Shown here: positions 9,512 through 61,385 of the stretch, piece after piece | Position numbering within the stretch: position 1 is the first letter of the stretch | How the letters are laid out: each line of letters begins with the position of its first letter | Assembly (NCBI GenBank): GCA_947462335.1 | Contig: OX381713.1 | Location: 18,592,381-18,656,380 of the forward strand | Reading direction: 5' to 3' | Source of the DNA: Harmothoe impar | Lineage: Eukaryota; Annelida; Polychaeta; Phyllodocida; Polynoidae | Length of the DNA: 64,000 bases | The notes under the pieces: model-generated | Told to the model about the DNA's origin: nothing | What the model saw: the letters and a program-made list of their open reading frames with translations, nothing else | The model's database searches: none | Translations under genes and position numbers: made by a program

Positions 9512-12500
9512 GTGAGTAACGCTTTTCTTACTTCTACTATTTATAAAGGATAAAACCAAGTATAAATTCGCAGTTTAGAGCTTATCAGTACATTCGTTAG
9601 AAATGTTGCAGAACGAACAGCTGTGCCATGGCTAGGTTTCATATCAAATTGATAATTTGTTTGTGAACATATTTTTAATAGTTTTTTTATCGATTATTTA
9701 TATTAATCAAAACGCCAAATAACCTACTGAAAGAAGGAAGGAAGCGAAGCTTTGTTGATAAACGTAACTATATTCATAAGATTTAGAGATTGAAAGATGA
9801 TTTTATGAGGATAAGATGAGTTGTGTATTAATGCCATTGTGTAAAATGAGAGTACATAAATACATGAATTATTGAGATGATATTTATAGAGGTAATTGAA
9901 AATTATGTAGAACATAAATATTGCAGGTGAGGGTGGGTGGGAGACAATGTATGGATGATGTGTGTAGGAGGGGAAAGAAGAGAGAAGTGGACAAGGGCCG
10001 CGGCCGATAATATATAATGACACTAGCGCTTTAGGCTATGGGGGCCGCCATCTTGACTCAGAGCAACGCATTATGGTTAGGCCCCCGACTTCATAGCAGT
10101 GCATTATGGGTTAATTTCTTATCAGTTCCTTCGTTCAAGGTATGAGAGAAGGGGATTAGTTTGATAAGGAGATGGGGTGTAGCCCCCATCTTCCTGAGGT
10201 ATCAGGATGTGCGAGTGCCGTATACATGTGGGTTGTGGGTAGTACCGGATCCTAACACCAGAGGGGGCTGGGGTGGAGTAGTTGGACACCTGGCTAAATC
10301 AATGACGGCCCCTATACTCAACAACCACATGAAGCTACTATTAATTTGATATCAAATAATATGGATAATTAGCTATATCTGCTTACTTTATAGAATGCCT
10401 CTTATAATGTTGATAATTACCCCTAACATCTGTATATATTACATCAAATGCCAGTGCGAAAACACAGATGAGTGAACCGGTATATAATTATAGTACTTTA
10501 TTTTCTCTTTTTTTTGAGGGGCATTGTGAAATCAAACTGGGACATGCTAGTACGCTCCTACCAGACCCGGGGGATACATGAAAAAGGTTTCCTGACCACG
10601 TACAAGAAACCAAAAAACCTACAGTCCTACCTAGTCCTTGCAAAGCTGGGTAAAGCACCTAGTGACTTACCCAGTGTAAAGGTCAATGTCTGCAAGACCA
10701 AGAACTGTGGATATTGCACCCGCATGAACTTTACTGGCAAAATTAGATGTACCTCCATGGGGCGCACCTACTCCAGTAAGCAGCATGTGTGCTGCAAGAG
10801 CTCAAATCTGATCTACTGCCTCGTCTGCAAAAGATGTGGTAAAATGTACGTAGGCCAGACACAAGCTCGTCTGATGGACAGGTGCCAAACACACCTGAGG
10901 AACACCAGAACTGATGTTAAAATGAGCATCGTCGGTGCCCATTTTAACTCGGCCTTCCATAAAAAGCTGGATGATTTGGAGATCTACACAGTAGACTTCA
11001 TTAATGCTCCCCCCTTGAGTGACAAGGCCGCCTACCTGAGAAATCTCATTGACTTCAATTGGATTCAGAGACCTTTTAGTGCGGGATAAAAACTGGGATA
11101 CATTTGTACCAGGGACTAAGTATAGGCCTAGCCAATGCCCGATCCCACCTGTGAGATGGTCTAGCACCCTTCGAGACTCTGATCTAGCACTGTCATAAAA
11201 TTTTATTTAACCACCTCGGCATTTTAAGGTATAGGCCTACACAGGGTTTTTTGAGAATCTTTAGTCTATCTGAAAATTCATGGTACACCCTTTAGATTTC
11301 CCTTGTAAATCTAGAGCCTAGAAATTAAATCCTAGAAAAACTCGGGACCACTGGCAATTTAATTGTCACTGTTTTAGCTTGATATTTGCTTGATAATAAG
11401 GCTAGCGTCCGCAATAGTGGATATGATAGTCAACGGTTATAGAAAGTACCATATGCAAATTTAATTTACGGGAGACACTGAGTTCCTGGCCATTGTCCTG
11501 TTAAGAATAATCTATGATACCTCTAGTTCTATCCTCCCTCCTGTAAACAGGTTCTATTTAAATGATGTATAAGGGAATTGTGTTGTTTGCAATAGGGACA
11601 TGCAATCCCTTCACTACATGGTTTACCCCGTCCAGGTAAGCCATTGTCACTGGTAAAATGACATGTTGAAAGTATCTTTCTGTTGTTAGTGGCTTCCTAT
11701 GGGCTGCTACCGTTGGCTAATGTGTAGGTAACATGACAACATTTTGTTACATCTGTGCCAAAATCAGATAAATCCCAGTGAACCCTTTTCAGACATCAGT
11801 AGTGTCCTCATGCTCTCACACTGGCACTACTGATACTTCTAAGGTCTCTGATAAATGATAGATAAGTAAGTACAGTTACAATTAGCGAGAGGAAATCAAA
11901 GGGGCCTTGAAGGACACCCTGATTTAACTTTAAATAGATGATGACAACACATTTTAAAACCCTACTTCTACTTTAGCAGGCACACAATACTGTTTATTCT
12001 CTCAAAACTAAAATAATTATAATGCGACCAGTGGACGTCATATCATTGTGTATCCCAGCAGGTATAGTTTGGGTCAAATTTAACTTTATGTATTCTTTAT
12101 TCACTCATCTGTCTTTCCAGAGTAGTTTACTCAAAGCAATTAGCAAGCGGGGAGGTGCATAAATAATATCCCCATCCCCATCAAAGTTAGATTGGGTGGG
12201 GCCATTGTAATAGTTCCTCTGACAGCTATTTAATATTAAATTTAAAACGTTACATTTCCCAAGCACTTTATATATGAGAAAAGATGTTCTGATTAAAATG
12301 TCGTTCGAGGGACTAAGAAGTCTAGAGTTAGATGTACGTGTTACCATTCACCTCCACTGCTCACTGCCCCAACACTAGAACACTGTAGAGTTGGAATGAC
12401 TCCCAGAAGAAATATTTACCACTGCCTAGACAGTTGTTATGGGGAAAAGGGGACAGTGAGTTGTGGCATCTTAGAGACGCATGCATCACATCGGCACTTT

Positions 12501-27500: not shown

Positions 27501-30500
27501 AAGTCATGTGTCGAATCATGGCAAATTCTGACTGTTTGCACTAATAAATTATTGCCAAAAGATTCTCGTAAACATTAGGGAGTTGTCATTTTTTGACAAC
27601 AGGGCGGGTTGGTGGATTTTTATGCGAGCGGTCGGAATCTTTTTGGTCACCCCCCTCAAGGGGTGTATATTCTTTTGGTCCCCCTCTTCAAGGGGTCCAA
27701 ATCTTTTTGGTTCCCCCCCCCCAAACCCACCAACTCCCCCCCCCCCCCCTGTTGTTAAAAAATGACCACTCCCTTACATATAAATGAGGATAATTTGGCA
27801 CATATTACCCAATATAATACACAATGTTTGCATCTTATTCTACTCCCACAGCTATGAGCGCCTTCTCCAGTTTCATGGTGCTTCTCCTTATTTTGGTGGA
27901 GGCCTGCCCTGCTACAGCCTCATCTGTACCATCCATAGGTAAGCTCTTGTTGTCCACGTAGTATGCCGCTATTTTACTAGGAGGCAGGATTTGGGTTTTA
28001 TGGGGGGATATAAAGTGCATATAGATCTAACAATTGGTGTCCACTGCCTCTTTTTACCAATTTATTATTAAATATGCAACACACATTATGTTAGGTTTAA
28101 TCGAAAATTTGGGCTATTGTATCATTTACCGAAATAAAATTATCTTTGAAAGAAAATGATCAACCAACACCATTCCTTTGTGATATCAAATTGTGGCAGC
28201 TCTGTTCTTATTGACTATTGTACCGACTCAATTTCCTTCATCACTATCTAGAATATATACAACTCATATATATATATTGCACACATTGTTACTTGATACT
28301 TAATGACATGTAATTGATACGTTATCACTATCAGGCAAAAGCTTCCTCATGATTTCTTTCATTGATAGTCTCCTTTACCTTTGGTGAAACTACAGAGCAG
28401 GTGTGTATCAATATGTACCGAATATACGGTACATATCTCGACCTGGACTCATGGGTGTAGAGTTAGGTGTCGGGAAAAAAAAAGAGTAGAATCTAAAGTG
28501 CAAACAATGCTGGATGATAAGGAAATAAGTAAAAAAGTGGGAAGAACTCTTCTAAGCAAGAAGGTCAGAACCCCACAGATATATTTCCTCCCTAAAATCC
28601 ACAAAAATGCAAAGGCCCCCCCGGGGAGACCTATAGTTTCTGCCAATGGCTGCCCCACAGAGAGGATCTCCGCTTTTGTGGACATCTTTCTCAAACCAAT
28701 GGTACGGAAAAGTAACTCATTTGTAAAAGACACAACAGATTTCATCAACAAAGTTGAGCGTCTAGATAGACTCCAACCCAACAGTATCATAGGCACACTA
28801 GATGTGACCTCACTGTATACTAACATACCAAATGATGAGGGCATTGCCAGCATCAAGTGTATGTTAGACACCGAGAGAATTGGTGACATAAATCCCAAAA
28901 ATGAGACTCTGATTGAGCTCCTAGGGATGGTTCTAAAAAGCAACAATTTTCAATTCAATGGCCAAAACTTTTTACAAGTGAGCGGCACAGCAATGGGGAC
29001 CAGAGTAGCCCCCTCATATGCAAATCTCTTCATGACCACTCTAGAAAACAAATTTCTAGACAATCATGATAAAAAACCACGAGTGTGGTTGAGATTCATT
29101 GATGACATCTTCTTTGTCTGGGACTATGGGGAAGATGAATTGAAAAATTGGCTGGACTACCTAAACAGTCAGCACCACAGCATAAAGTTCACCTCAGAAT
29201 GGTCAAAATCTGAAATCAGTTTCCTCGACACCAAAGTGAAAAGGGACCAGAATGGGAAATTGTACACCGACCTGTACACCAAACCCACGGACTCAAATAG
29301 CTATTTGAGATACGACTCTGCACACCCCCCAAGTGTGAAAAAGAGTCTACCGTACAGTCAATTCCTACGCCTGCGGCGTATATGCAGAAACGAAGATGAC
29401 TTTGAAAAACATGCCGAGATAAAGGCTGAACAGTTCCGGGAAAAAGGCTATCCCGAAAGTCTCCTAGTCGAGGCCAAAAAACAAGCCACTTCCAAACGGA
29501 GAAATGAATTGCTTGAGGCAAAAAAGAAAAAACAGTCAGAAGAAGAGAGAGTCTTCCTCACAACCACCTTCAGACCACAATACAACAAGCTTGAAAAAAT
29601 TGTGCAACGAAGGTGGGACGAGCTAGGTGAATCCTGCTCAACCAGAGGACTTCAACGCATGAAACTGATGGTAGGCCACAGGAGACCAAAAAATCTCAAG
29701 GACCTACTCGTCAGGGCAAAGGTGGATTACCACCCAGAGAATGAAACGGAGGCCGAGCCAAGGCCACCAAAACCAAACACATGCGTCCACAAACCAACCA
29801 AAAAACACCCGGTTTGTGAAGTTTGCCCGAAAATAGAAAAATCGGGCAAAATCGAGGTAAACTCGAAATGTTCTAAAGAAACAAAAAAGAACATAAATTG
29901 CGGCAGCTCAAACATTGTTTATTGCATTGAATGCAAGTGCTGTGGCAAGAGATACATTGGGGAAACGAAAAGAACCCTACATGACCGTATCATGGAACAC
30001 ATCGGAGATGTGGAACACAAACGATACAAAAAAAGTGAAGTGGCTTACCACTTCAACAGACCTGGACACAAGAAGGATCTAGACATGAAAGTCTACATCC
30101 TGGAGTTCATATATGAACACCCTGAGTCAAAAAGAGCAAACAGACTAAGAAAGACGATTGAATGGAAATGGGTACAAAGGCTGAAGACACTCATCCCGCT
30201 AGGGATGAACATAATGGAAAGTCGCTATGGTTAGATTCGACCCCCCAAATGCCACGTCATTTTTTTCCCGACACCTAACTCTACACCCATGAGTCCAGGT
30301 CGAGATATGTACCGTATATTCGGTACATATTGATACACACCTGCTCTGTAGTTTCACCAAAGGTAAAGGAGACTATCAATGAAAGATTGATCCCCTGAAT
30401 CAAAACCAAAAGCTACCTAATTCTACTGAATCAGTAAGTTAAGTCCTTCACAAGGAGACCCACCTTGTACCAAGGCCCATCTATGACAGGTGGCCCCCCC

Positions 30501-48660: not shown

Positions 48661-49935
48661 TTCAAACAGCCAATCCGAGAGAGTATTAGAAAGCTCACAT
48701 CACATTTTAAATAGCAGGATGAATCTGCACTATAAATGATATAGTCCTTCTTTGCTTGGAAATTCAAACTGAAAATGACAACAAAGCATCCACTAAGCTA
48801 GGCACTTGGATAATTTTTTTTAAACGGTTACAATATATTCTGACTATAACCATGTGATAGAGCACATTGACCCCCTCTCAGAACATTTGGAATTACATTT
48901 GTATCCTAAGTAGAAGTGAAGAAATCAACCAGAACATGCATAGGCTGCAGAAGCAAGCTGATGCTATACAAATGTACACAGCCTGGTGTGGCAAATTGGC
49001 ACCAACTACTAGAGACACTCTGTTCTCTCTTTAATTGCAAGGTAACATGACATATCAGGCTTGCACAATGTTACAATGCTACTTGTGTATATATATATCT
49101 CATTGATTAAACCCAAATCCTACAATATGTGACTTGTATAGCACATTCTTTTATTGATTAAAATGAACAGTGATACCAGACACAGGTGGTGAAACCACAG
49201 ATCAGGTCTCAACCATGACTCACCGGTAACATCTGGTGTTAGGATCTAACATCTTACCAATAGGCTTACATAGGGATACCCAGACTGCTTAACACTGGTA
49301 CATCAAGACAGAACATGACTAATTTAGGGGAATGCAGGAAACCTCTTGGGATTCCACGCAGGAGGCTGGAAACGGACATGTAGCATACTATTGATGTGTA
49401 GAAAGAGGGCCGCATGTTAATACAAAGGGGCCATGAATATTTCAATGAAATTCGCTTAGATAAAGTTGACCTTTACATTTGGATAATTGCCATATTAGGA
49501 CTTACAATTAAATATATTCCCAATGATAAGTAGTGGATAGCCGGCTAAAAGACCTTTCCAATAAGCTAGTGCATGGTCTGTTATCTCTAATAGGAGCTGA
49601 ATAGGAGCAAAAACGAATAGGGTCATTTCAGACAGGCACTCATAAGGGTGCCAATTTTAGTGTGCCACCTGTGACTGCTGGTTTGAGCCCTGCAGTGCGG
49701 TTCTTCCAAGTGCCTAACTAAGCACTACCAATTCAGATAGATTAAAGTGAACTCCTACGCTGTGCCTCCACAATATAGACAGATAATAATTATACAGATA
49801 TTATGCTACTGCACTCTGGCCACAGGTCCTGCAAACTCTATGTATATCATACTCTGCCTGCGTGATGGGCCTATTGTTCATACCTTAGGTTGGATACTAT
49901 TATTATACTCATTCTACTTCTAGAGGAGGAGGGGC

Positions 49936-50020
49936 ATTAGTCTGGGAGGAGGTTATGGGCACAAGTCTGGGAGGAGGTTATGGGCACAGGTCTGGGAGGA
50001 GGTTATCTGGTTATGGGGAC
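49936..50020. repeat. GTCTGGGAGGAGGTTATGGG minisatellite
   Basis: A unit of about 26 bp is repeated three times, with decayed copies continuing to about 50070. Confidence 0.85.
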
Positions 50021-50104
50021 TAATCTGCGAAGAGGTTATATGAACTAGCTCAAGTATTAGAGGAGGTTATGAGAACTCTTTCTTATTTAAAATCCTACTT
50101 TCAG

Positions 50105-50306: not shown

Positions 50307-50312
50307 AGGGTA
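50307..50312. repeat. Target site duplication AGGGTA, left
   Basis: Identical to 61380-61385. A 6-bp duplication is the known hallmark of Polinton/Maverick integration. Confidence 0.95.
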
Positions 50313-50750
50313 AGTAGTATAGTATGTATCGGAACGGGACTATGGTTAACTACTGTTTATTACTCAATCGACATGCAGCCAATCAGAGGCCGCCATTTGG
50401 TCACGTGACCCGTTGCCATGGTAACGTGACCTACTTAGGGCTCTCAGCCAATCAGAAGCCAGCATTCTGGGTGACCTACTGACCTACTTAGAAGCTCTCA
50501 GCCAATCAGAGGCTGGCATTCTGGTAACCATGGTAACGTGACCTACTTACGTCACGTGACCTACTTAGGCTCAGCCAATCAGAAGCTGGCATTCTGGTAA
50601 CTAGGGTAACGTGACCTACTTAGGGTTTGTTTGTAAACAACACCACGTGGCTCTCTTGTTTGTAAACAACACCACGTGACACGTGACTGTTTGTAAACAA
50701 ACAAACAAAAAAGTTATGTAACTTATATATAGAAATAAAAACACAACAAG
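50313..50750. repeat. Polinton left terminal inverted repeat
   Basis: 438 bp, matching 60960-61379 in reverse complement with about eight substitutions and an 18-bp length difference near its inner end. It contains internal repeats of CAGCCAATCAGA, GTAACGTGACCTACTTA and TGTTTGTAAACAA. Confidence 0.95.
50379..50700. promoter_or_regulatory. CCAAT / E-box / forkhead-motif array inside the left TIR
   Basis: CCAAT lies at 50379, 50448, 50502 and 50575, each inside CAGCCAATCAGA. CACGTG lies at about 50402, 50553, 50644, 50673 and 50680. The palindrome TGTTTGTAAACAA occurs at about 50628, 50658 and 50688. This is the density expected of an animal enhancer or promoter, and the right TIR repeats it in mirror image. 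Confidence 0.6.
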
Positions 50751-50777
50751 ATAATTTTTTTTTTTTTCACATTATTC

Positions 50778-50783
50778 TTTATT
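50778..50783 (-). terminator. Candidate poly(A) signal of the minus-strand array
   Basis: AATAAA on the minus strand, just after the last ORF and just before the left TIR. Confidence 0.5.
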
Positions 50784-50811
50784 TTCATTTCAATCAAAAA
50801 AACACACAAGT

Positions 50812-51111
50812 TTATGCTTTTTTAGCTCGCTTCTTCGATTTGCAACAACCCAACAGGCCGCAAAGTCTCACGCCGCCGTCACTCGCACCACCACACCCCG
50901 GACGACTTCTCTCCAATAGACATTGCACGACTTTGGATAAATCCAACACCATTTCGGCAAGGCAGAGAATCTTTGCCTCCATGAAACGGCCGCCATCGCA
51001 ACAACCCGTCACAACAGCATCATCGATAGCTTCTGACTCACTGTCCGGTCGCTCAGCTTTGGGATTTTGCTCATGCGCATGACGCACTTCTTGGGGTTTC
51101 TTGTTCGACAT
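50812..51111 (-). CDS. Small terminal Polinton ORF, 99 aa
   Basis: I do not recognise this protein. It starts inside the 3' end of the protease (overlap about 100 bp) and ends about 60 bp before the TIR. The N-terminal half is acidic and polar. The C-terminal quarter is Cys/Gly-rich and ends in a Lys/Arg cluster (CCKSKKRAKKA). It could be a genuine overlapping gene or a chance frame in the former protease 3' region. Confidence 0.4.
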   Translation of the reverse strand: MSNKKPQEVRHAHEQNPKAERPDSESEAIDDAVVTGCCDGGRFMEAKILCLAEMVLDLSKVVQCLLERSRPGCGGASDGGVRLCGLLGCCKSKKRAKKA

Positions 51112-51418
51112 GCTTCAATTAGGAAATGAACGCAATGAGGTCCACAGGTGTCAGCAGAAGTGTCTTGTAGTTGAACGCGGTTTCTTTGCCACTTGAACGG
51201 AGCAGAGCGTTCCACGAAAGACAAGAACTCCGCACTCAGCTCGACACGTAAAACGCCACCCAATGCTGACCTGGTAAATGTTGCGGATCTCTGTTGCTCA
51301 CGAAACAAGTGTCTTTGATAGGGTGCTTCGGAATAGTGTCACAAGAGAAAACACCAAGGAAACGATGTTTTGTGTGAACGTTTTCCTTCAACACTCTGCT
51401 TATTTCAAGCGTGTTCAT
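51009..51418 (-). pseudogene. Adenovirus-type cysteine protease, frameshifted
   Basis: Polinton proteases are relatives of adenovirus maturation protease and process capsid precursors. The N-terminal part starts at the ATG at 51416-51418 and carries the catalytic His region (GQHWVAFYV, His about residue 52). That frame ends at 51236. The C-terminal part continues in another frame to 51009, with the oxyanion Gln and nucleophile Cys region (QLQDTSADTCGPHCVHFL, Cys codon about 51144-51146). The change of frame falls at about 51236-51262. The acidic catalytic residue expected just after it is not recognisable. A sequencing error is possible. Confidence 0.85.
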
Positions 51419-51447
51419 ACGATACGCTAAGTACCGCTGTCTTGTCT

Positions 51448-52755
51448 TCAGTTCATGTGGTAGTCGGTGATGGGGTGTCGATCTCGGGTCAGCTCGACGA
51501 CGTTGTCGTACACCAAGTAGAGTAGCACCGTTGTTGTCGCTTGTAGCGCCGAGCGGAAATTGACTTCCACCCTCAGCTGACCCGCTCTTATAAGGTTCAC
51601 GCGACACCCGTCGTGCGATCTGTCTGGGGTTAAATCGAGGGGGAACACCGTGTAACCGTTCAGGAATTGATCGTATGAAATACCGCAGGAGCGCGTGCCC
51701 TCGTACATCCCCGTTTCCGTGTGTAGCGCCAAGTACTCTCTCACGGCCGCTTTGGTCTTAAAGTCGGGCACGTAGGCGTCGTTCGGCACTTTCTGATCGT
51801 TCACTATCACTTGAAGCGAGCTGATGTCGTAATGCTTCATCTCGAACGGGTTCTTGGTGTAGCTACCGTTGAAGGCGTCGTGGTCTAGGAAGCAAATCAT
51901 CATCGACTTGGGAAGCTGGCCTGTGTTGGAGTGCGTGTAGCTGTGATCTCTGTTACCTTGAGGGATGGCGTACGTCGTCACCTCCACTCTGTTCACCGGG
52001 TAGTCGAAGGGACCGTGTTCTATCACCGCTCTCTCGTGCGTTTCCGCTACAGCGTCCGCCACCAACACGCGTCGCACGTAGAGCTTTGCTTTGTAGATCT
52101 TCAAGCTGTAGCCTGCGTCAGCGGCGCACATCAGATAGAAAGAGGGCGCTGCCTGTTTCAGAGTGAGATTGATTTCTGTCTCTCCAACGATGAGCTTCGG
52201 TTGATGAGCCAGGTCAAAGTGCAGTCGCGCCATCAGCGAAAAGCGCTTGTTGGAGATTAGCTTCCTGCGCGCTTTGTACCCCGCATTCGCGTCAGTCAAC
52301 GCGTCAAACTGACCAGGCGTATCTTCATGCCACCCCTGGGCGCTCATGACGCCGTTCTTCACGTCTTTGTTGTAGTTGAGTAACCCTTCCAAGTAAGCTC
52401 GGTAAGGGTAGGTCTCGGTGTTGCCAGACACTTTGAAACCGCCGATGGAGACTTGGACGTCTTTGAAGAGCGAGTGAGCCAAGTTGTTCACCGGAGCTAC
52501 CGCGTCGGTGTCCTCGAGCGCCGCTCCGTTCGGTTTCAGCACTTGACATTCCAGATGAAGGTAATTCTCGTTCAGGTCTGTGTACTCTTGCGACTTGTTG
52601 ATGGTGAAATTTATGTTACCTCCATCCTCTAAAGAGTTTTTTGTTTCTATCCCCAGGAAAGACGACTTTAAGATAGTAGTCTGAGTCGGCGCTACGGTGT
52701 GCAGGTCAAGCTCAGAGAGCGTGCACTCGTTACTGCTCTCGTGTACGTAAGCCAT
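51448..52755 (-). CDS. Polinton major capsid protein (double jelly-roll type)
   Basis: 435 residues, uninterrupted. It has the order of motifs of Polinton major capsid proteins. An N-terminal arm is followed by YTDLNENYLHLECQV, then APVNNLAHSLFKDVQVSIGG, then YRAYLEGLLNY in the first half. Later come LHFDLAHQPKLIVG, the YVRRV segment, YPVNRVEV, NPFEM, and FPLDLTPD near the end. The family folds as two jelly-rolls and forms the hexameric capsomers of an icosahedral particle. It has its own TATA-type promoter about 55 bp upstream and is followed, about 30 bp on, by the protease. All expected regions are present, so the gene looks functional. Confidence 0.93.
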   Translation of the reverse strand: MAYVHESSNECTLSELDLHTVAPTQTTILKSSFLGIETKNSLEDGGNINFTINKSQEYTDLNENYLHLECQVLKPNGAALEDTDAVAPVNNLAHSLFKDVQVSIGGFKVSGNTETYPYRAYLEGLLNYNKDVKNGVMSAQGWHEDTPGQFDALTDANAGYKARRKLISNKRFSLMARLHFDLAHQPKLIVGETEINLTLKQAAPSFYLMCAADAGYSLKIYKAKLYVRRVLVADAVAETHERAVIEHGPFDYPVNRVEVTTYAIPQGNRDHSYTHSNTGQLPKSMMICFLDHDAFNGSYTKNPFEMKHYDISSLQVIVNDQKVPNDAYVPDFKTKAAVREYLALHTETGMYEGTRSCGISYDQFLNGYTVFPLDLTPDRSHDGCRVNLIRAGQLRVEVNFRSALQATTTVLLYLVYDNVVELTRDRHPITDYHMN

Positions 52756-52803
52756 TGTGTTCTCTCTTCACGCGGACGACAGACTGACGCCGGCCGCCTC
52801 CAG

Positions 52804-52822
52804 TCTTTTTATTTATACCTGA
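52804..52822 (-). promoter_or_regulatory. TATA-type promoter of the major capsid gene
   Basis: On the minus strand the sequence reads GGTATAAATAAAAAGACTGG, about 55 bp before the ATG. The word GGTAT(A/C)AATAAAAAG also precedes the ATPase. Confidence 0.7.
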
Positions 52823-52834
52823 ACGCCTAGGCGC

Positions 52835-53260
52835 TTACCGGTCGAATACATCCCCTCTACGTCTCTTGCAAGAGCCACCGCCCGTCTGAGGAGAATGCCG
52901 GCGACGTTTCGACCCTTTCTTAGACGCGACAGTCGTCTTTCCTCCCGAGAACGCCGTACTCGCCAGTCTCTTCAGAGCGCCTGCGCCTCGGTCTTTCACG
53001 CTGCTCTTTAAAGTCCGACCCGCCAGCACATCTTTAGCTACGCCCACACCGGCGCGGAGCAGCGTTTTTCCCACCGACTTCAATAGCGGGGTAGCCGAGC
53101 GCATCAGACCTAACAGAGCGCCGCCCAAACCGTGCCCGCTCTGGAAAGAGCGCCCGCTGTACACGTTGATGCCGTTGCCCAGCTGCGCGTTGTAGTAATC
53201 GCTGTACCCTCTGCCGACGGTGCGCCTGGGTGGAAAGTACGGAACGCGTTGACGCATCAT
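52835..53260 (-). CDS. Basic glycine-rich Polinton protein (core or minor capsid), 141 aa
   Basis: The N-terminus is aromatic and basic (VPYFPPRRTVGRGYSDYYN). The middle has a Gly-rich motif and amphipathic helix (GHGLGGALLGLMRSATPLLK, then KTLLRAGVGVAKDVLAG). The C-terminus is strongly basic (KKGSKRRRH, CKRRRGD). Small proteins with this G-x-G, PLLKS, and DVLAG layout recur in Polintons next to capsid genes, and their membrane-active or nucleic-acid-binding part recalls adenovirus small core proteins. The exact role is inferred, not known. It sits between the minor and major capsid genes. Confidence 0.75.
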   Translation of the reverse strand: MMRQRVPYFPPRRTVGRGYSDYYNAQLGNGINVYSGRSFQSGHGLGGALLGLMRSATPLLKSVGKTLLRAGVGVAKDVLAGRTLKSSVKDRGAGALKRLASTAFSGGKTTVASKKGSKRRRHSPQTGGGSCKRRRGDVFDR

Positions 53261-53317
53261 TTTTCTCTCTTTCAGCGCTCAATAGGTCTCAGATGAAGTG
53301 TCACGGTCACCTCGCCT

Positions 53318-54175
53318 CTACCAAATGGGATGGAATGACCGGATCGGTCTCTTAAATAGATGCCGACCTCGGTAAACCTCTTGGATTTCAAGGGGAAATA
53401 ATCCAAATGCGAGATGCGGAGTCAGCAGGACAGCACAGTGTCTCGGCGGTTTGATGGTGACGCGTTTCGTCTTGGCGTCGTACGATAAGATCCGCATCGG
53501 TTTGAGCAAGAAGCTGGCGCCCTCTAGTCTGTCATCTCGCAACGTCTCACTCAAGCGCTCGAGAAGGGTGTGGTTGCTTCCGGTGAAAATAGGAGGTATC
53601 TGGAATATGTTTGGCATGAAACTGCGCACTCCCATGTCTTTCTCCATCTTTTCGATCATCTGTCTTGCTTGATCGCTGATCGCCTTCTTCTTCACCGCCG
53701 GGGACAATAACTGCTTGTATACGGCATTCGTCTGTCTCAAGTCGACCTCTCTCTTGAACCTTTTTGTTTCCGGTTTCAATCGCTGCTCTTCCGACGTGTC
53801 TGATATCTCTTCCACCGTTACATAGCTCGCTTCCTTCCAGCTCAGCGGGTATTTTGAGCTGAACGTTAGCTTGCTCAGACCGTTCGCGTTTTTCATTCTC
53901 TTCCAGTCTACCTGCGGTTTTCTTCCTTCGGCGAATACAGTCTCTTTTAAAACGTTGATCGCCTCCTCTAGCGAACCCTTGGTGCGCAGAGGAACAACGA
54001 TGATCAAGTCGTCGTCGTGCACGTTAGTCCATTCTGTAGGGAGGATGATCTCAGTCAGAGCCGCTTCGTACGCTTCGGGCAGAAGGAGCGGCGAGTCGAA
54101 GTGAGTTCCGAAAGACGTCAAGCTGTTGTCAGGATAATACTCCATAGAGCTGTTGCTAGGTAGGGTGATGTTCAT
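53318..54175 (-). CDS. Polinton minor capsid protein (penton-like)
   Basis: 285 residues beginning MNITLPSNSSMEYYPDN, then SLTSFGTHFDSPLLL and ALTEIILPTEW. This is the family N-terminal signature (ITLPSNSS ... N ... F ... L ... EVALTEI) of Polinton minor capsid proteins, which are single jelly-roll proteins thought to occupy capsid vertices. The Lys/Glu-rich middle is a likely linker. The C-terminal part ends SFHPIW, somewhat short of what I would expect, so a late frameshift cannot be excluded. It starts 21 bp after the integrase stop, in the same direction. Confidence 0.85.
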   Translation of the reverse strand: MNITLPSNSSMEYYPDNSLTSFGTHFDSPLLLPEAYEAALTEIILPTEWTNVHDDDLIIVVPLRTKGSLEEAINVLKETVFAEGRKPQVDWKRMKNANGLSKLTFSSKYPLSWKEASYVTVEEISDTSEEQRLKPETKRFKREVDLRQTNAVYKQLLSPAVKKKAISDQARQMIEKMEKDMGVRSFMPNIFQIPPIFTGSNHTLLERLSETLRDDRLEGASFLLKPMRILSYDAKTKRVTIKPPRHCAVLLTPHLAFGLFPLEIQEVYRGRHLFKRPIRSFHPIW

Positions 54176-54196
54176 TTTTTTTTTTTTTCTTTTTTT

Positions 54197-55333
54197 CTAC
54201 GTTATTTTTTTGACGGGGATCCACTCGTTGAACTTGTCGTCGTAACCTAACCAACGTACGAAAGCTAACTCTTTACCGTCGACGGTCTTGCGGCGCAACA
54301 CCTCGTCTATCAGGTAGTTGTTGTCGTAACGACTCTTGTACACCTTCTGAACCTCTTCCGGGTAGAAGACGCCTTTTATCTCCTCGCCCTTGTCGTCTTT
54401 CAGCTCGAACCCTCTGCTTCCCAACGTCTTAGCAACGTCGACCACTTCCTCGCGCCAGTTTCCCTCGTACCCTTTGTCGAAGGCGCCTTTAGTTCTCAAC
54501 ATCCTCACTCTGTCACCCGGAGCGATGACGTCGACGGCGGACGTCTTTGTTTTTTTCTTCTTTTTCCATATTTCGTCGATTTGTTTGTTAGTTGGGAGAT
54601 CTTGTCGGTAGAAAACTGTTTCGCTGTTTTCCGAGCTGACTTGAGCCGGCGCCATTTTCAACGTCTTGTGGTGAGTGCGATTGTAAGAAGACACTACATG
54701 GTGCAGTACGTCTACGTAGCGATACGTGCGCTTGTGTGTGAAATAACGCCACAGCTTCTCCTTCAGACTGCGGTTCAAGCGCTCCACTAGACTAGCTTTG
54801 ATGTCGTCGTTCTCGCCAGTGAAAAACTGTATGCCCTCGCTCTTCAAGTGATCTTGAAAGATCTTGTTCAAAAACTCTTTCCCCTTGTCTGTCTGAACAG
54901 TGCGCGGTCGTCTCTCGCCAGTGTCTGTCATCTTTCGGAAGGCCTCGGTAACATCAGCGCCGCTCTTGGATTTAATGGGAACGGCCCACGCGTACCTAGA
55001 GAAAACGTCGATCGCCGTCACCATGTACCGGAAGCGGCCGTTGTGAGACGCCAAAGCCTGCATGTCCATCAGATCTATCTGCCACTGCTGATCGATTGCG
55101 CCGGTTATAGTCTTGTTCCTTGCGAATTTTCTCCGAATGGGTTTATGTTTAGTGTAGGCGTCCAGCGACACTAAAGCATCTCGGATGACGGCCGGGTTTA
55201 GGTGGCGAAAATGATGTTTCTGGAGTTTAGTCACGCTAGTGAAACTGGAGGGTGCTTTGACGTCGGTATATCTAGCTACTACGCGCTTCTTTTCTTTTTC
55301 CTTCTTGGTCAGTCTCTTCACTGGTTTGCCCAT
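54197..55333 (-). CDS. Polinton integrase (retroviral type) with chromodomain
   Basis: 378 residues. The N-terminal basic part leads to the RNase H-fold catalytic core with Asp87 (WQIDLMDM), Asp149 (TDKGKEF) and Glu184 (SLVERLNRSLKEKLWRYFT), a complete D,D(34)E triad. The C-terminal domain includes SSYNRTHH and then a chromodomain (YLIDEVLRRK, FVRWLGYDDKFNEWIPV). Integrase inserts the linear element with 6-bp duplications, matching the AGGGTA repeats seen here. Chromodomains are thought to steer integration to modified histones. The frame is intact and overlaps the 387-residue ORF by 16 bp. Confidence 0.96.
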   Translation of the reverse strand: MGKPVKRLTKKEKEKKRVVARYTDVKAPSSFTSVTKLQKHHFRHLNPAVIRDALVSLDAYTKHKPIRRKFARNKTITGAIDQQWQIDLMDMQALASHNGRFRYMVTAIDVFSRYAWAVPIKSKSGADVTEAFRKMTDTGERRPRTVQTDKGKEFLNKIFQDHLKSEGIQFFTGENDDIKASLVERLNRSLKEKLWRYFTHKRTYRYVDVLHHVVSSYNRTHHKTLKMAPAQVSSENSETVFYRQDLPTNKQIDEIWKKKKKTKTSAVDVIAPGDRVRMLRTKGAFDKGYEGNWREEVVDVAKTLGSRGFELKDDKGEEIKGVFYPEEVQKVYKSRYDNNYLIDEVLRRKTVDGKELAFVRWLGYDDKFNEWIPVKKIT

Positions 55334-56481
55334 CGTTGGCCTGTTGGGGGCGTGAACGACGCCGCCGCCGCTAGGCGGTTGCGCCCTTTCCTTTTCTTAC
55401 TCGCCGCGCTCCTATAGGAAGTCGGAGTTTGGAAAAGTTCACTGCCCTCCTCGTCGTCAGAGGATTGATCGTCCACCTGGAGAGAAGAGTCTGCTGCTGC
55501 TACTGCTGCTGCTGCTTCTCCTTCTTCCGAGTCGAAGCTCGGTCGTTTCCGACCTCTGTCAGCAAGCCGTGTGTCCAAGCTTTGGCCAGGTCCGCTCGCT
55601 TTATACAGATGGTTTCCGATCAAGGAGTCTGTGGGAACTGCTTCGCGCAGCGCTTTTGTGAACGGAGAGTAGCCCGCCGGTCTGGGCGCCGTCTTCCTGA
55701 ACCTGGCGGCGTCGTTCAGTAAGTCCACTATGTTGATGCGTAGCTCAGGTGGTATTCTCCGACCCGACATCTCGCGCACCGCACCGTCCTCGTTCCACTT
55801 GACCACACCGGATTTCTCCAATTGTTTGTACAGCGCCACGGTCCGGGTGCGATTCCTCTTGGGAACTTGGTTCACCAACCGCTCAAGTAGGGACGCGCTG
55901 GCTTCTTCAGCAGACTGACGGAGGTGAGCCGGGGGCGAAGAAGTGTAGGACGAAGAGATGTTGCTGTTGTTGGGATTCGCGAGAAAAAATTGCAATCTAT
56001 TCAACAACCTTCGGTATTTCAACATTTTCTCGCGCGATTCCAAAGTGGGATCATTCAACACTAAGTCCAAGTCCCTGTAGATAAACTGTAGCACCTGGTG
56101 CAAGGCCGCGTCGGGATGAAGGGACTGTTCTGCCTGCTTGTGGTAATAGGCCATATCGGCAGGTAGGCGGGCGGCGGTGGCAGGAGCGGAACTCTCGTTC
56201 TTTTCAGTACGCTCATCAGGAAGAGGAGGAAGGTTTGGAGCAGTAGAAGTACTAGCAGCAGCGACTGCAGTAGTAGCAGCGCTAGTAGTAGCAGCAGGGG
56301 GCACATGATGAAGTAGACCTGCTCGTGATGATTTGTAGAGCGTCTCAGGATCCACGAGCGCTAAGCGTTTGTAGTGTTGTTGCTGCTCTGAGTCCGTCAT
56401 GGGGACGACGGTGGCGATGACGCTGGCGGTTGCGGTAGTGGTGGTACTGTCGGCGAGTAGGTGTCGAATGAGGTGTCTCAT
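55318..56481 (-). CDS. Conserved Polinton protein with NIVDLLNDA module, 387 aa
   Basis: A low-complexity Ala/Thr/Ser N-terminus is followed by KRLALVDPETLYKS, a helical region (EKMLKYRRLLNRLQFFL), then VVKWNEDGAV ... INIVDLLNDAARFRK ... SPFTKAL ... LIGN. This last module recurs in Polinton genomes next to the packaging genes, but I know no established function. The C-terminal tail is acidic, then basic (SKKRKGRNR), consistent with nuclear or DNA contact. The start used is 4 bp into the previous ORF (ATGA overlap). A downstream ATG at residue 28 (MTDSEQQQ) is an alternative start and fits the conserved part. Confidence 0.75.
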   Translation of the reverse strand: MRHLIRHLLADSTTTTATASVIATVVPMTDSEQQQHYKRLALVDPETLYKSSRAGLLHHVPPAATTSAATTAVAAASTSTAPNLPPLPDERTEKNESSAPATAARLPADMAYYHKQAEQSLHPDAALHQVLQFIYRDLDLVLNDPTLESREKMLKYRRLLNRLQFFLANPNNSNISSSYTSSPPAHLRQSAEEASASLLERLVNQVPKRNRTRTVALYKQLEKSGVVKWNEDGAVREMSGRRIPPELRINIVDLLNDAARFRKTAPRPAGYSPFTKALREAVPTDSLIGNHLYKASGPGQSLDTRLADRGRKRPSFDSEEGEAAAAVAAADSSLQVDDQSSDDEEGSELFQTPTSYRSAASKKRKGRNRLAAAASFTPPTGQRWANQ

Positions 56482-56810
56482 ATACGGAGAATGCTCTTTA
56501 TAAGCGGTAAGGCCATCCCTATGAGAGCCGGAATGAGGAAACCTCCCTCTTGTACCAAGACGCGTCTCTTTTTTTTGATGGGCGTAGATTTTTTGCCGAC
56601 CTCCCTCAACACGTCAGCCGATTCTCGAAGCTTGTCCAGTTGTTTGTCGCTGAGCGGGATGTTCCCTACCAGTAAATTGTGACAGATCTCACTCAACGCT
56701 GCGATCAGATCGTCGCTTCCAGAGTCTATTAGATGCGAGCAGTCCTTTGGCGAGCACTTAGCTAAGTGCTTGAGAGTACCAAAGTGTCTTTCGAGTAGAT
56801 GAGAAAACAT
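56478..56810 (-). CDS. Small Polinton protein with hydrophobic C-terminus, 110 aa
   Basis: The body is acidic and helical (LIAALSEICHNLLVGNIPLS, then KQLDKLRESADVLREV). A basic hinge (KKKRR) and a hydrophobic tail (GGFLIPALIGMALPLIKSIL) follow. Small proteins with the same E-x-x-x-N-x-L-x-G-x-x-x-L-S and basic-GGF-hydrophobic architecture occur next to the ATPase in other Polintons. The tail could be membrane-active or virion-associated, which is inference. It lies 5 bp after the ATPase stop and overlaps the next gene by 4 bp. Confidence 0.72.
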   Translation of the reverse strand: MFSHLLERHFGTLKHLAKCSPKDCSHLIDSGSDDLIAALSEICHNLLVGNIPLSDKQLDKLRESADVLREVGKKSTPIKKKRRVLVQEGGFLIPALIGMALPLIKSILRI

Positions 56811-56815
56811 TTTTG

Positions 56816-57522
56816 CTACTGCTTTCTCTTGTTCTTTTTTTTGTCTAGCGGTACGAATACTAGCTGAGAGTGTATGGACGTCAAAGAGGAGCGTATTCTC
56901 AGATCGTCAGGTGTTGACTGCTTGAAGTCCAGAAGGAGGTATGAGTGAGGTCGCTTGAGTTCATGGGTAAATATACTAGAGAGGGCCGCCGCGTTGGAGG
57001 GAAACACCTGGCGAGACAGACTAGCTATTTGCCCCATGTCGCGCGGGTTCTTGAAAACGATCATGTAGTGAGCGTTCAGACACATAGTTCGAAAGTCGGG
57101 TGATTTCTGGTGATATATATGACGCTCACGTTCCAGTGATGGGATTATTTAGTAAAGATGTCGGCTACCACTTGCTGATTGGAACTGCTCATCAGATCGT
57201 CCAATATCAGTAGAGTGTGCGGTCGTAAAGCGTCTTCTGCTACTTCCACGTCTCCCGCTATAGACTCTTTGCTAGGAAGACCTTCTCTGAATTCCACACC
57301 GTACTGATTTTGCATTTTTTCAAACAGAGGTTGCCACTCGCCGTAATGGTAAAAAGTCTTTTCCACCGGTGGCGTGACCAAATTGTTCACGTCGCTCAGA
57401 AATTGATCCACCAAGCGCGATTTTCCACAACCCGACGGACCGCTAATGATACAACTAAAGGGTCCTTGTAGTCGAGCGTCGAAATGAATTTCTGTGAAGA
57501 GTTTGCTTTTACTACTCGACAT
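56816..57522 (-). pseudogene. FtsK/HerA-type packaging ATPase, broken by a stop and a frameshift
   Basis: The family packages DNA into adenovirus-like and Polinton capsids. The N-terminal piece (57522-57145) has Walker A (GPSGCGKS, residues 28-35) and Walker B (LLILDD, residues 104-109), then meets an in-frame TAA at 57145-57147. Homologous sequence continues past that stop for about 15 codons in the same frame. The remaining C-terminal piece (LNAHYMIVFKNPRD onward) is in another frame, from about 57085 to 56816. Two independent lesions within about 60 bp argue for true decay rather than a programmed event. Confidence 0.88.
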
Positions 57523-57631
57523 TTTTTTGGTTTTTTTCAGGACGCGTCAGAGAGTAGTTGTGTGTCTGACTGTCTGCTGTGTTTCTCACTCGAACGGTCG
57601 GTAGTGAATGGTTGTGGAGAAAAGTCAGCCG

Positions 57632-57647
57632 ACCTTTTTATTGATAC
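57632..57647 (-). promoter_or_regulatory. TATA-type promoter upstream of the ATPase
   Basis: On the minus strand GGTATCAATAAAAAGGTCGG, nearly the same as the major-capsid promoter word, about 110 bp before the ATPase start. It would drive the ATPase-to-minor-capsid run of genes. Confidence 0.6.
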
Positions 57648-57738
57648 CGGCCGGTGTCACAGTAGCGGCTGCAGAAGTGACTTTTTTCTTTTTTTTTTTT
57701 TGCGGTAAAATTCTATTTTCACTCAATAGCCATAAATG

Positions 57739-57771
57739 TTTGTATCAGACTCCAGAGGAGTCTGATACAAA
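57739..57771. repeat. Perfect 15-bp-stem hairpin in the Polinton spacer
   Basis: TTTGTATCAGACTCC, loop AGA, then the exact reverse complement. It stands alone between the minus-strand gene array and the right arm. Confidence 0.9.
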
Positions 57772-57789
57772 TATTTATTTTTTAAAAAA

Positions 57790-57790
<1 letters not shown>

Positions 57791-57826
<36 letters not shown>

Positions 57827-57886
57827 GGAGGAGGAGGAGGAGGAGGAGGAGGAGGAGATTAATTTTTTTTTTTTTTTTTTTTTTTG
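57791..57886. repeat. GGA-rich purine tract followed by a T-run
   Basis: About 67 bp of pure AG sequence, mostly (GGA)n, followed within a few bases by more than 20 T. This is a strand-asymmetric tract that could form triplex or quadruplex structures. Confidence 0.95.
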
Positions 57887-58041
57887 ATCATTTAGGCAAA
57901 GCTCGTCGCTTTGCCGCTTTTTTTTCTATTTCTGTGTTGTGACACGATCGTCTCGAAAAAGCAATAAGGCGTGTGAGCGCGGCGGTGACAAATACATATT
58001 GGAGCGTATGGTTTAAAATAGTGCGTCCCTATCTTCTTCAA

Positions 58042-58548
58042 TTAGGCTGCGTTGCAATATGCGGGATAACAAGTGACGACGTCGAAACGTTTAGAGACCG
58101 TGTTCACGTCGGCCACAACGCGCGCCCACCGAGTGGGAGCTGCAGTCGCTCCCAAGAAACCGATCAGCTTGTCGAATCGTTTCATAGCGCTTATTCTCAC
58201 TTTATAAGAGGAGGCAGGGTGAGGAGAGTAGCGGCGCTCTTTCTTTTCATGAAACGCCCAACGAGTGGGGGCGCTGAGAGCGGCTGTTATGCAATGGTAG
58301 AGTAAATACTGTTCTGAGAAGACGGCTCTCGGCCATGTTGCTACGTTTTCCTTTTCCGCTCTTGTACAACGACGATTTCTTTGGCGCTCAGCTTTGCTTT
58401 TCTCGAGAATTCGGTACGCTTCAAGAGAAGCGTGAACCTCAACTACGTGACGCTCTCTCCTTTGAGATAAAAAAATAACCGGGCAGTTGAGGAGGGCACT
58501 TTGTTCGCGTGTCCGTCTTTTAGAAACTCGCGCCCTCTGGGGCGCCAT
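58042..58548 (-). CDS. Unrecognised basic ORF in the Polinton right arm, 168 aa
   Basis: I do not recognise it. The protein is basic throughout (ARVSKRRTREQ at the start), with a repeated segment SAPTRWA / AAPTRWA about 45 residues apart, reflecting a duplicated GCGCCC..ACTCG.TGGGCG DNA word. A TATA-like CCTATAAAAGACTGAG on the same strand at about 58766-58780 could be its promoter. The AAAGACTG part is shared with the major-capsid promoter. No resemblance to polymerase motifs is visible. Confidence 0.42.
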   Translation of the reverse strand: MAPQRARVSKRRTREQSALLNCPVIFLSQRRERHVVEVHASLEAYRILEKSKAERQRNRRCTRAEKENVATWPRAVFSEQYLLYHCITAALSAPTRWAFHEKKERRYSPHPASSYKVRISAMKRFDKLIGFLGATAAPTRWARVVADVNTVSKRFDVVTCYPAYCNAA

Positions 58549-58763
58549 ATTTCTTTCCTCCGAAACAAAAAAGACTGAGTGAAAATAAAAATTTAAAAAA
58601 ACAAAAAGCTCAAAGAAAAAAAATAAGCAATAAGCAGACTCAGCTCGAAATTCCCTGCTGGCGTGATGGCGGTGACTGCAGGCGGTGGCGGCGGTCGGCT
58701 GGCCGGCGGTGGCGGTGTCGGGGGCGATGGTAGAAGGGGGTGTGGAAAGAGAGATGCATCTCA

Positions 58764-58781
58764 GTCTTTTATAGGAGCGGC
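58764..58781 (-). promoter_or_regulatory. TATA-like promoter, Polinton right arm
   Basis: On the minus strand CTCCTATAAAAGACTGAG, which shares TAAAAGACTG with the major-capsid promoter. Confidence 0.5.
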
Positions 58782-59087
58782 GAGAGTTCGACTTAGTCTG
58801 ACATTTTCAGCTGTCGCATGCTGACCTGCTGCTATCATAAGAGAAACAAAAGCCCTAATCACGCTTTTCAGCTGGATCCTTCCACCCACCAGACATGGAT
58901 CCAGATGGGAGGGTGGTTTAAAATTAATCCGTGTACCGACTGTCATACAATAGTGTAATTAGTTGAACGCGTGTTACCTGTATAAAGGATTAGCAGGTCA
59001 TGGGCTTAGAGTGTGTATAGAAAAACAACTACAGGTAGCGTGAACAAAGCGACCCCCTCCCTTTCTGTCACTCTGTCTGTGACCAGA

Positions 59088-59262
59088 GGGCGCGCGTGTG
59101 GTAAGCGGCTTAAATCTAAAGAAAAAAAAACACCCTCTCCTGTCGTCAGCAGTCAGCTGGCCGGCGGCTGGAAAATGCGATTAGAGGGATGATGAGCGCG
59201 TAGTAAGCGACTTAAGGCTAATCTAAAGACCTGCCGTGAAAGGGCAGCTGGCCGGCGGCTTG
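59088..59262 (+). repeat. Two-copy upstream element before the alanine-rich ORF
   Basis: Two imperfect copies about 93 bp apart: GTAAGCG(A/G)CTTAA, TCTAAAGA and CAGCTGGCCGGCGGCT, then GAAAA. A third GGCTGGCCGGCGG lies at about 58696. The pair sits just upstream of the TATA box at 59282. Confidence 0.65.
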
Positions 59263-59280
59263 AAAAAAGGGGGGAGTAAG

Positions 59281-59290
59281 GGTATATAAG
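59281..59290 (+). promoter_or_regulatory. TATA box for the plus-strand Polinton gene
   Basis: GGTATATAAG, with a start region about 30 bp on and the first ATG of the alanine-rich ORF about 90 bp downstream. Confidence 0.65.
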
Positions 59291-59377
59291 GGGGAGTGAA
59301 ACCCTATTCGTCATCGTCAATCATCATTCACTCTACTACTACTACTACTACCACCACCACCAGCACCACGCCTCAAT

Positions 59378-60016
59378 TTGCAGATCCCCATGATGGAAAG
59401 TTGCGACCGTGACATGAAGCGGTATGACGAAGCGGCGCGCGAATGTGAAGCTGATGCTGTAGCCTCTGCTACTGCTGCTGCTAGTGCCGCTCATCGTGCT
59501 ACTGCTGCATTTACTGCCGCTGTTAGTGACGCTGGTTGTGATGACGTTGTTGTTGTTGCCGCTGCGGCTGTGACTGCTGCTGTTGCTGCCGCCGATGCAG
59601 CTACTCATGCCGCCGATGCCGACGCTGCTGCTGCTGATGCTGTTGCGGCTGCCGATGTCGCCGCTGATAACGCTGCTAGTGCACGCTCTGCTGCCCTTGC
59701 TACTGTCGCTGCTGCTGTTGTTGCTAATGCTCACGCTACTGCTGCTGCCGCTGCTGCTGCTGCTGCTACCGCTGCTGCCGAGGCTGCTGCTGCTGCTGCT
59801 GATGCTGCTGCTGATGCTGCTGATGCTGCTGATGTTAGCAGTCGCGTCGACAAAGAATCGTCATTTGTCACTCTTAAACCTCCAGTTGAACGCGCGACGG
59901 GTAGTAGGGCTACCAACGCGACGGCTGGATGGTGCAAATGGTGTCGTCGCTTCTGCTCGTGCACTTGCTTTTCTTCCGGTCCTACCTGCTGCTGCTACGG
60001 TATAATAGTGTTATAG
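59378..60016 (+). CDS. Alanine-rich orphan protein with Cys-rich tail, 212 aa
   Basis: The only plus-strand candidate in the element. It has a short charged N-terminus (MMESCDRDMKRYDEAARECE), then about 130 residues that are overwhelmingly Ala with regularly placed Asp, Thr and Val, predicted to be one long helix. The tail is Cys-rich (WCKWCRRFCSCTC). ATGs at 59378, 59390 and 59393 are possible starts. A TATA box and duplicated upstream element support expression. The GCT-biased DNA could arise by triplet slippage, and its antisense strand is also open, so coding status is unproven. I know no Polinton family like it. Confidence 0.45.
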   Translation: MQIPMMESCDRDMKRYDEAARECEADAVASATAAASAAHRATAAFTAAVSDAGCDDVVVVAAAAVTAAVAAADAATHAADADAAAADAVAAADVAADNAASARSAALATVAAAVVANAHATAAAAAAAAATAAAEAAAAAADAAADAADAADVSSRVDKESSFVTLKPPVERATGSRATNATAGWCKWCRRFCSCTCFSSGPTCCCYGIIVL

Positions 60017-60048
60017 TGTTTGAATGAGAACGCGCGTAGTTACACATA

Positions 60049-60902
60049 CCCAGTAAACACAACGACGTTGGTCAGACGTAAATCTACGTTGAATTTTGGT
60101 CTGAACTACGTAATTTTAGTAGGTTTATCAACGTCAAAACATTAAGGTTTATTTACCAATCTCAAACCTGCAGGTCTGATTTACGTAGCTCCTGAAGAGG
60201 TAAATCTATGTTTAACACACTACATATAATTCTACATAGTGGGACTCAGACAAAGACTTGTAATATATTGCAGACAAATTTACATTTGCAAACAATATTC
60301 CTACAAAGTAACTACTATAATTTTCAATCTCATCTCATTCTACATAGTATATTCTTGTAGTTCAATTGAACAGCCTGAAAGTATAGATCTGTTGAATAGT
60401 TTTGGCTGCAGAGAGGCTTTGTAATTCTTCCATTACCACCAATGTGGTGTCCTCACAGTAAAGTGCCTCAAAGCACCTATTCATGCACAGTACTTTAATC
60501 GCCTGTCCTTTATATATAAATATTCTATTGAATACGGTTTATTTGCATGATATTGAATTTCAGAATTAATGAGAATTTACTGCTTGAATGTGGTAGATTT
60601 GTTAAAGAGCTGTAATATTCTCTCCATAATTGATAGTGCTGCCACCTAGTGTGACACGGAAAAGTCATCTACCCAATTGAAGTTGAAAAGTTACGTCGTT
60701 TAACGTAGATCTATGTAGAATCTTTACGTCTGAATGAGGTAGATCAACGTAAATCAGACGTCTACATCTGTTGAACGTAAATAAACCTTAACGTTTTGAC
60801 GTCTACAAACCTTCCAAAATTACCAATCTCAAACCTTTTGGTTGGACATCTACCTAGAGAAACCTCTGAGCTATGTTGGAACTACGTAGGGTGTTTACTG
60901 GG
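60049..60902. mobile_element. 854-bp MITE nested in the Polinton
   Basis: Termini CCCAGTAAACAC and GTGTTTACTGGG, flanked by TA on both sides (60047-60048, 60903-60904). The arms continue with inverted similarity for about 200 bp, including GACGTCAAAACGTTAAGG-like words. The middle (60240-60640) has no usable transposase frame. The family may relate to the CCCAGT-ended elements elsewhere in the window. Confidence 0.85.
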
Positions 60903-60959
60903 TAGACGCTGTAACAGATGTGCTTTTTTTTGAAAATATAATTTTAGCATAACATGAAA

Positions 60960-61379
60960 CTTGTTGTGTTTATTTTCTATATATAAGTTCTTTGTTTACA
61001 AACAGTCACGTGTCACGTGGTTTTGTTTACAAACAAGAGAGCCACGTGGTGTTGTTTACAAACAAACCCTAAGTAGGTCACGTTACCCTAGTTACCAGAA
61101 TGCCGGCTTCTGATTGGCTGAGCCTAAGTAGGTCACGTGACGTAAGTAGGTCACGTTACCATGGTTACCAGAATGCCGGCCTCTGATTGGCTGAGAGCTT
61201 CTAAGTAGGTCAGTAGGTCACCCAGAATGCTGGCTTCTGATTGGCTGAGAGCCCTAAGTAGGTCACGTTACCATGGCAACGGGTCACGTGACCAAATGGT
61301 GGCCTCTGATTGGCTGCATATCGATCGAGTAATAAACAGTAGTTAACCATAGTCCCTTTCCGATACATACTATACTACT
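60960..61379. repeat. Polinton right terminal inverted repeat
   Basis: 420 bp, the inverse of 50313-50750, with the same CCAAT, CACGTG and TGTTTGTAAACAA-type motifs in mirror order. Confidence 0.95.
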
Positions 61380-61385
61380 AGGGTA
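61380..61385. repeat. Target site duplication AGGGTA, right
   Basis: Exact match to 50307-50312. Confidence 0.95.

Follow-up and report, generated by a model that had tools for sequence, protein, structure and literature searches.

A Polinton-type element with a virion gene set and without DNA polymerase B in the genome of Harmothoe impar, and its possible life as a satellite

How is a Polinton copied if it has kept its ends, capsid genes and integrase and carries no DNA polymerase B (PolB)? The question is raised by an element at positions 50313-61379 (11,067 bp) of the window, the whole 64,000-nucleotide stretch of Harmothoe impar DNA analysed here. The element runs from AGTAGTATAG at 50313 to CTATACTACT at 61379. 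Its terminal inverted repeats (TIRs), which are 392 bp long, 98% identical and end in AG...CT, are those of a Polinton/Maverick, as is the perfect 6-bp target site duplication AGGGTA that flanks this copy. A sequence-only reading had claimed AG...CT ends, long TIRs and the duplication (50307-50312 and 61380-61385), and all were recovered when we derived them again. The features are as follows, with the state of each frame in other copies of the family where these were compared.

50307..50312, target site duplication AGGGTA, left
50313..50704, plus strand, left TIR, 392 bp, with repeated motifs
50812..51111, minus strand, 99-aa open reading frame (ORF), no assigned function; open in 10/10 other copies (99-105 aa)
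51009..51607, minus strand, adenain-like protease; broken in the window copy (several frames), 150 aa in 10/10 other copies
51448..52755, minus strand, major capsid protein (MCP), 435 aa, double jelly-roll
52835..53260, minus strand, 141-aa basic protein, virion-type; 140-141 aa and open in 10/10 other copies
53318..54175, minus strand, probable penton (minor capsid); 285 aa in the window copy, 372 aa in 9/10 others
54197..55333, minus strand, RVE integrase with weak chromodomain, 378 aa
55318..56481, minus strand, 387-aa protein (396-399 aa in other copies)
56478..56810, minus strand, 110-aa protein (110-115 aa across copies)
56816..57522, minus strand, packaging ATPase; two frames (broken) in the window copy, 239 aa in 10/10 others
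58042..58548, minus strand, p216, conserved, no known family; 168 aa in the window copy (early stop), 216 aa in others
59390..60016, plus strand, Ala-rich ORF with a TATA-like box just upstream; 203-211 aa in other copies
60049..60902, MITE-like insert, private to the window copy among those compared; absent in 9/9 comparable copies
60988..61379, minus strand, right TIR, 392 bp
61380..61385, target site duplication AGGGTA, right

The left TIR holds four occurrences of AGCCAATCAG, six of AGTAGGTCA and five of CACGTG, and the first two motifs are absent from the 50.3 kb to the left of the element. All three are presumably similar to host transcription-factor sites, and the repeats resemble what might be expected of a combined promoter and origin. 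A separate tandem repeat, with five units of 25-33 bp, lies at 49932-50076, immediately left of the element. Farther away in the window, the long open frames at 28369-30234 (plus strand) and 10472-11089 (plus strand) look like a Penelope-type reverse transcriptase that carries GIY-YIG, together with another GIY-YIG-like piece.

The left part of the element is a virion and integration set, with a minus-strand gene order of 99-aa protein, protease, major capsid protein, 141-aa protein, probable penton, integrase, 387-aa protein, 110-aa protein and ATPase. The integrase matches the Pfam family rve (E 5e-14), and its Chromo match of 19.6 bits lies under the 25.1 cut-off; we count the two as the RVE integrase and chromodomain of Polintons/Mavericks. 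Pfam also identifies the ATPase as Adeno_IVa2-like and places the protease of an intact copy above the Peptidase_C5 cut-off, giving the packaging ATPase and adenain-like protease of that group. An AlphaFold2 model of the major capsid protein (pLDDT 84) matches the double jelly-roll capsids of PBCV-1, Sputnik and mavirus in Foldseek. The frame at 53318..54175 is the probable penton on the basis of its position and size, and neither its 285-aa nor its 372-aa form has a family match in Pfam. The virion-type set previously described for this locus is thus present as capsid, protease, ATPase and integrase, with the reservations that the penton has no family match and that protease and ATPase are broken in the window copy.

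Relatives of the major capsid protein occur at 94, 81, 79, 79, 73 and 72% identity, and those of the integrase at 99, 94, 80, 79, 79, 77, 76 and 71%; the named capsid matches, in Lytechinus and Holothuria, stand at 32-33%. Relatives of the element were also sought in viral contigs, where none was found. The 99% identical integrase (P0042) comes from a public contig whose 10,510 bp equal one unit of the element; repeat collapse or free DNA could account for this. We rejected this contig as proof of free virus DNA because the collapse of repeats yields the same length.

The protein-primed PolB of Polintons/Mavericks is missing from this complete element, as had been noted from its letters. The window element contains no frame of PolB length, and the six frames of 57523-60963 gave no Pfam match. 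Such Pfam negatives are weak, since hmmscan (E 0.01) missed PF03175 in two PolB frames of the Harmothoe impar genome that scored 102.8 and 105.3 bits in the profile search of the genome. We therefore judge the absence by missing space, by the constancy of the right arm and by tblastx. Counted from the start of p216, the right arm measures about 2.0 kb, which leaves no room for PolB; tblastx of an intact copy (L011, L012) against 20 PolB loci from this genome found no match; and PolB is present in 0/10 fetched copies. PolB fragments in the slot, whose discovery in a translated search of 57523-60963 would have counted against the claim, were found neither in the six Pfam frames nor by tblastx. 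A private deletion in the window copy was also considered and rejected, as the absence is common to 10/10 fetched copies and to 19/20 further right arms, the remaining arm being gapped.

What, then, fills the place of PolB? It had been described as 3.4 kb of unrelated sequence, of which the lack of PolB stands but the extent does not: 57523-60963 consists of about 2.6 kb of family sequence and an 854-bp insert, and it holds p216 and the Ala-rich ORF. The slot is two small genes, open in most copies examined, and not mere filler. Five relatives of p216 were found at 70-92% identity, one of which spans only 31% of the query. The protein matches no known family, PDB entry or fold, and its predicted model (pLDDT 34) says nothing on the fold. 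Because the identity ladder of its relatives is similar to those of the major capsid protein and integrase, p216 appears to have long travelled with their lineage; no contig links them. The other reading frames of the Ala-rich region are open too, so this frame may remain open by codon make-up alone.

The element belongs to a large family. Searching the genome (1.51 Gb, 736 contigs) with P0037, the p216 protein of the right arm, returned 1,880 first-look candidates, a figure that is no copy count, and 150/150 scored places were full length, stop-free and 97% identical to P0037. Because the scored places lie on contigs 1-6, with one exception on contig 12, 150 is a floor for the copy number. 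Ten of these places were fetched in pieces, and their selection by p216 match favours intact copies. The left-part gene order is identical in all ten, and p216, the ATPase, the major capsid protein, the protease and the 110-115-aa, 396-399-aa, 140-141-aa and 99-105-aa frames are open in 10/10; the integrase is open in 8/10 and the penton in 9/10, with all ten minus-strand frames open in seven copies. Perfect 6-bp duplications, each different, flank 8/9 copies that have both ends. These eight copies measure 10,477-10,539 bp, short of the 15-20 kb of Polintons. The ninth (L023/L024) has no duplication and measures 10,638 bp, and copy L027/L028, without a right end, continues into another right-arm piece. 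An open Ala-rich ORF (203-211 aa) is present in 9/9 two-ended copies and kept in 18/20 further right arms; 19 of these arms reach the same TIR at a distance of 1,980-2,016 bp from where p216 starts, and L038 has a gap of N.

The right arms of 28 copies show a median divergence of 0.40% (378 pairs) with a maximum of 2.7%, which indicates that the burst of the family was very recent. These data show that a polymerase-less element whose virion genes are open has integrated repeatedly in recent times. The copy-to-copy changes are few and come from a biased picking, and the penton and the 396-aa gene have many replacement changes. At L001, two right arms of the same orientation lie 3 kb apart, separated by a 200-base N run and a TIR.

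The window copy itself is a decayed member of this family. Relative to the ten fetched copies it carries the 854-bp insert, a MITE-like sequence at 60049-60902 with CCCAGTAAACAC / GTGTTTACTGGG ends, and has lost about 212 bp of the penton gene. Its protease, ATPase and p216 are all broken, and its right arm differs from 28 other right arms by a median of 4.3%.

PolB genes do exist elsewhere in the genome. A PF03175 profile search, in which 83 of 695 candidates were scored, gave at least 129 matches, none of the 129 in the window or in the fetched copies. At least 28 places cover profile positions 12-462, and 26/28 are stop-free; the frames of 27/28 are 1,133-1,189 aa long and one is 713 aa. 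Two PolB frames show a DFE exonuclease motif and DTDS. Simple patterns for SLYP and NxxYG found neither motif in these two frames and hmmscan gave nothing, so that the label PolB is based on the profile match and the two motifs present. Twenty PolB loci (L049-L068) fall into two groups that are about 72% similar to each other, and each group contains near-identical copies. Their GC content is 0.33-0.35 vs 0.49 for the element, and they show no match to it by blastn (window) or tblastx (L011, L012), in a comparison that covers stretches short of their ends and TIRs; 1.47 kb upstream of one PolB locus likewise has no match to the element. A 310-codon frame upstream of one locus looks like a Polinton penton. 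Among L049-L068 we also observed an Endonuclease VII-like match inside one PolB frame, and small basic and Cys-rich frames downstream of the PolB genes. The suggestion that the element would need a helper for replication is upheld in part: a helper is possible because PolB genes occur elsewhere in the genome, but none with the same TIRs was found in the stretches compared.

We propose, tentatively and at a little under an even chance, that this is a PolB-less family of the Polinton lineage which retains its genes for the virion and for integration and has lately expanded to 150 or more near-identical copies, a satellite that would form its own shell and have no replicase. Because it lacks PolB, the element probably must borrow its DNA synthesis, with PolB-bearing elements or the host as possible sources. 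A protein-primed PolB would act in trans on the TIRs and would most likely derive from a PolB-bearing lineage in the same genome; the element's own integrase would insert the copies; and packaging may still be carried out by the capsid proteins, protease and ATPase that the element encodes. The satellite proposal is favoured by the 150/150 stop-free p216 places, the 0/10 copies with PolB, the 7/10 copies in which all ten minus-strand frames are open, the 8/9 duplications, the 19/20 arms, the 0.40% divergence and the at least 28 PF03175 places. It is weakened by the lack of a TIR or sequence in common with the PolB loci, by p216-biased picking and by the few differences available for a selection test. 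Its particles and free DNA are predictions made from genome sequence. It is also possible, if rather doubtful, that the family is a capsid-making, self-integrating animal polintovirus satellite without a replicase that takes its polymerase from another Polinton lineage or from the partner in a two-part virus, and that it has amplified to hundreds or more near-identical copies.

The main rival to PolB in trans is copying by the host. The element could be a transposon proper, moved by its integrase and copied by host replication or repair without a viral polymerase, its virion genes being kept by recency or rare host passage. The intact integrase frame in 8/10 copies and the 6-bp duplications fit such a transposon, and integrase-only relatives of Polintons, such as Ginger, are known; the available text of PMC6431247 names Ginger beside Polintons. 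We nevertheless consider a transposon proper unlikely, as most of the copies examined have open virion genes and full-length capsid and integrase relatives extend down to 71-81%, which is hard to explain for long-useless genes. Becoming an ordinary non-autonomous derivative is a common fate of transposons, and a PolB-bearing master with the same TIRs might still reside in this genome, where 83 of 695 PolB candidates were scored and the PolB elements were read short of both ends. Such a derivation is decidedly unlikely in light of a right arm with its own genes and no deletion scar, 20 PolB loci without a match to the element, and the difference in GC (0.33-0.35 for these loci vs 0.49). Very unlikely, in our view, is a role of p216 or the Ala-rich protein as a replication protein, an initiator or terminal protein that would recruit a host polymerase. 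Although p216 has relatives at 70-92% and adjoins the ATPase, where vertebrate Mavericks carry PolB in the available part of PMC8097293, it gave no family, PDB or fold signal, and its model of pLDDT 34 is neutral.

PolB is the namesake of Polintons and among the genes used for finding them; a vertebrate Maverick survey, by the text available to us, was built on INT and pPOLB matches (PMC8097293). At least 150 near-identical PolB-less copies with a virion set suggest that amplification can do without the replication module, and surveys requiring PolB could miss such families. The element is also a natural system for asking whether Polintons make particles and whether a polymerase acts in trans.

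A transpoviron-like lifestyle had been suggested for this element. Transpovirons are linear, are thought to depend on another virus and encode a pPolB-S1H protein; to our knowledge, they have no capsid genes. The suggestion is a misfit because the element keeps a major capsid protein and virion set, which transpovirons lack, and has no polymerase. PMC11071308, whose accessible passages name transpovirons, describes Polinton-like viruses as mostly without pPolB and RVE integrase and with other replication proteins instead. Polinton-like viruses/Tlr resemble the element in bearing capsid genes and mostly lacking classical pPolB, but in those passages they carry a Tlr-type helicase, PolA or a primase fused to S3H, none of which was found in the element; S1H, S3H, PolA or a primase fusion had no Pfam match in the right arm or left-part frames. 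Meldviruses, as portrayed in part of PMC11071296, have virion genes without PolB and integrase; the element shares virion genes without PolB and differs in integrating and in its amplification. The same passages define Adintovirus by a distinctive PolB with an OTU-like domain, and the element has no PolB. We found no PolB-less, capsid-bearing, amplified Polinton in the literature searched, a scope that left out most subscription journals and makes the novelty provisional.

The closest systems are the Polintons/Mavericks of animals, which likewise have TIRs, 6-bp duplications, integrase, ATPase, protease and major capsid protein in a similar gene order (PMC8097293, available text). The element differs from them in lacking PolB, in its length of 10.5 kb and in having far more intact copies than the vertebrate maximum, since that text gives at most 38 intact Mavericks per vertebrate genome. 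Amplified PolB-defective Mavericks have a precedent there, because the axolotl has 287 Maverick copies, all with PolB fragmented by mutation (PMC8097293). Loss of one whole module also has a counterpart: some Polintons, according to the portion of PMC4028283 at hand, have lost the capsid module, with major capsid protein, protease and ATPase gone, and the present element is the reverse loss, in which PolB is gone and the virion set is kept.
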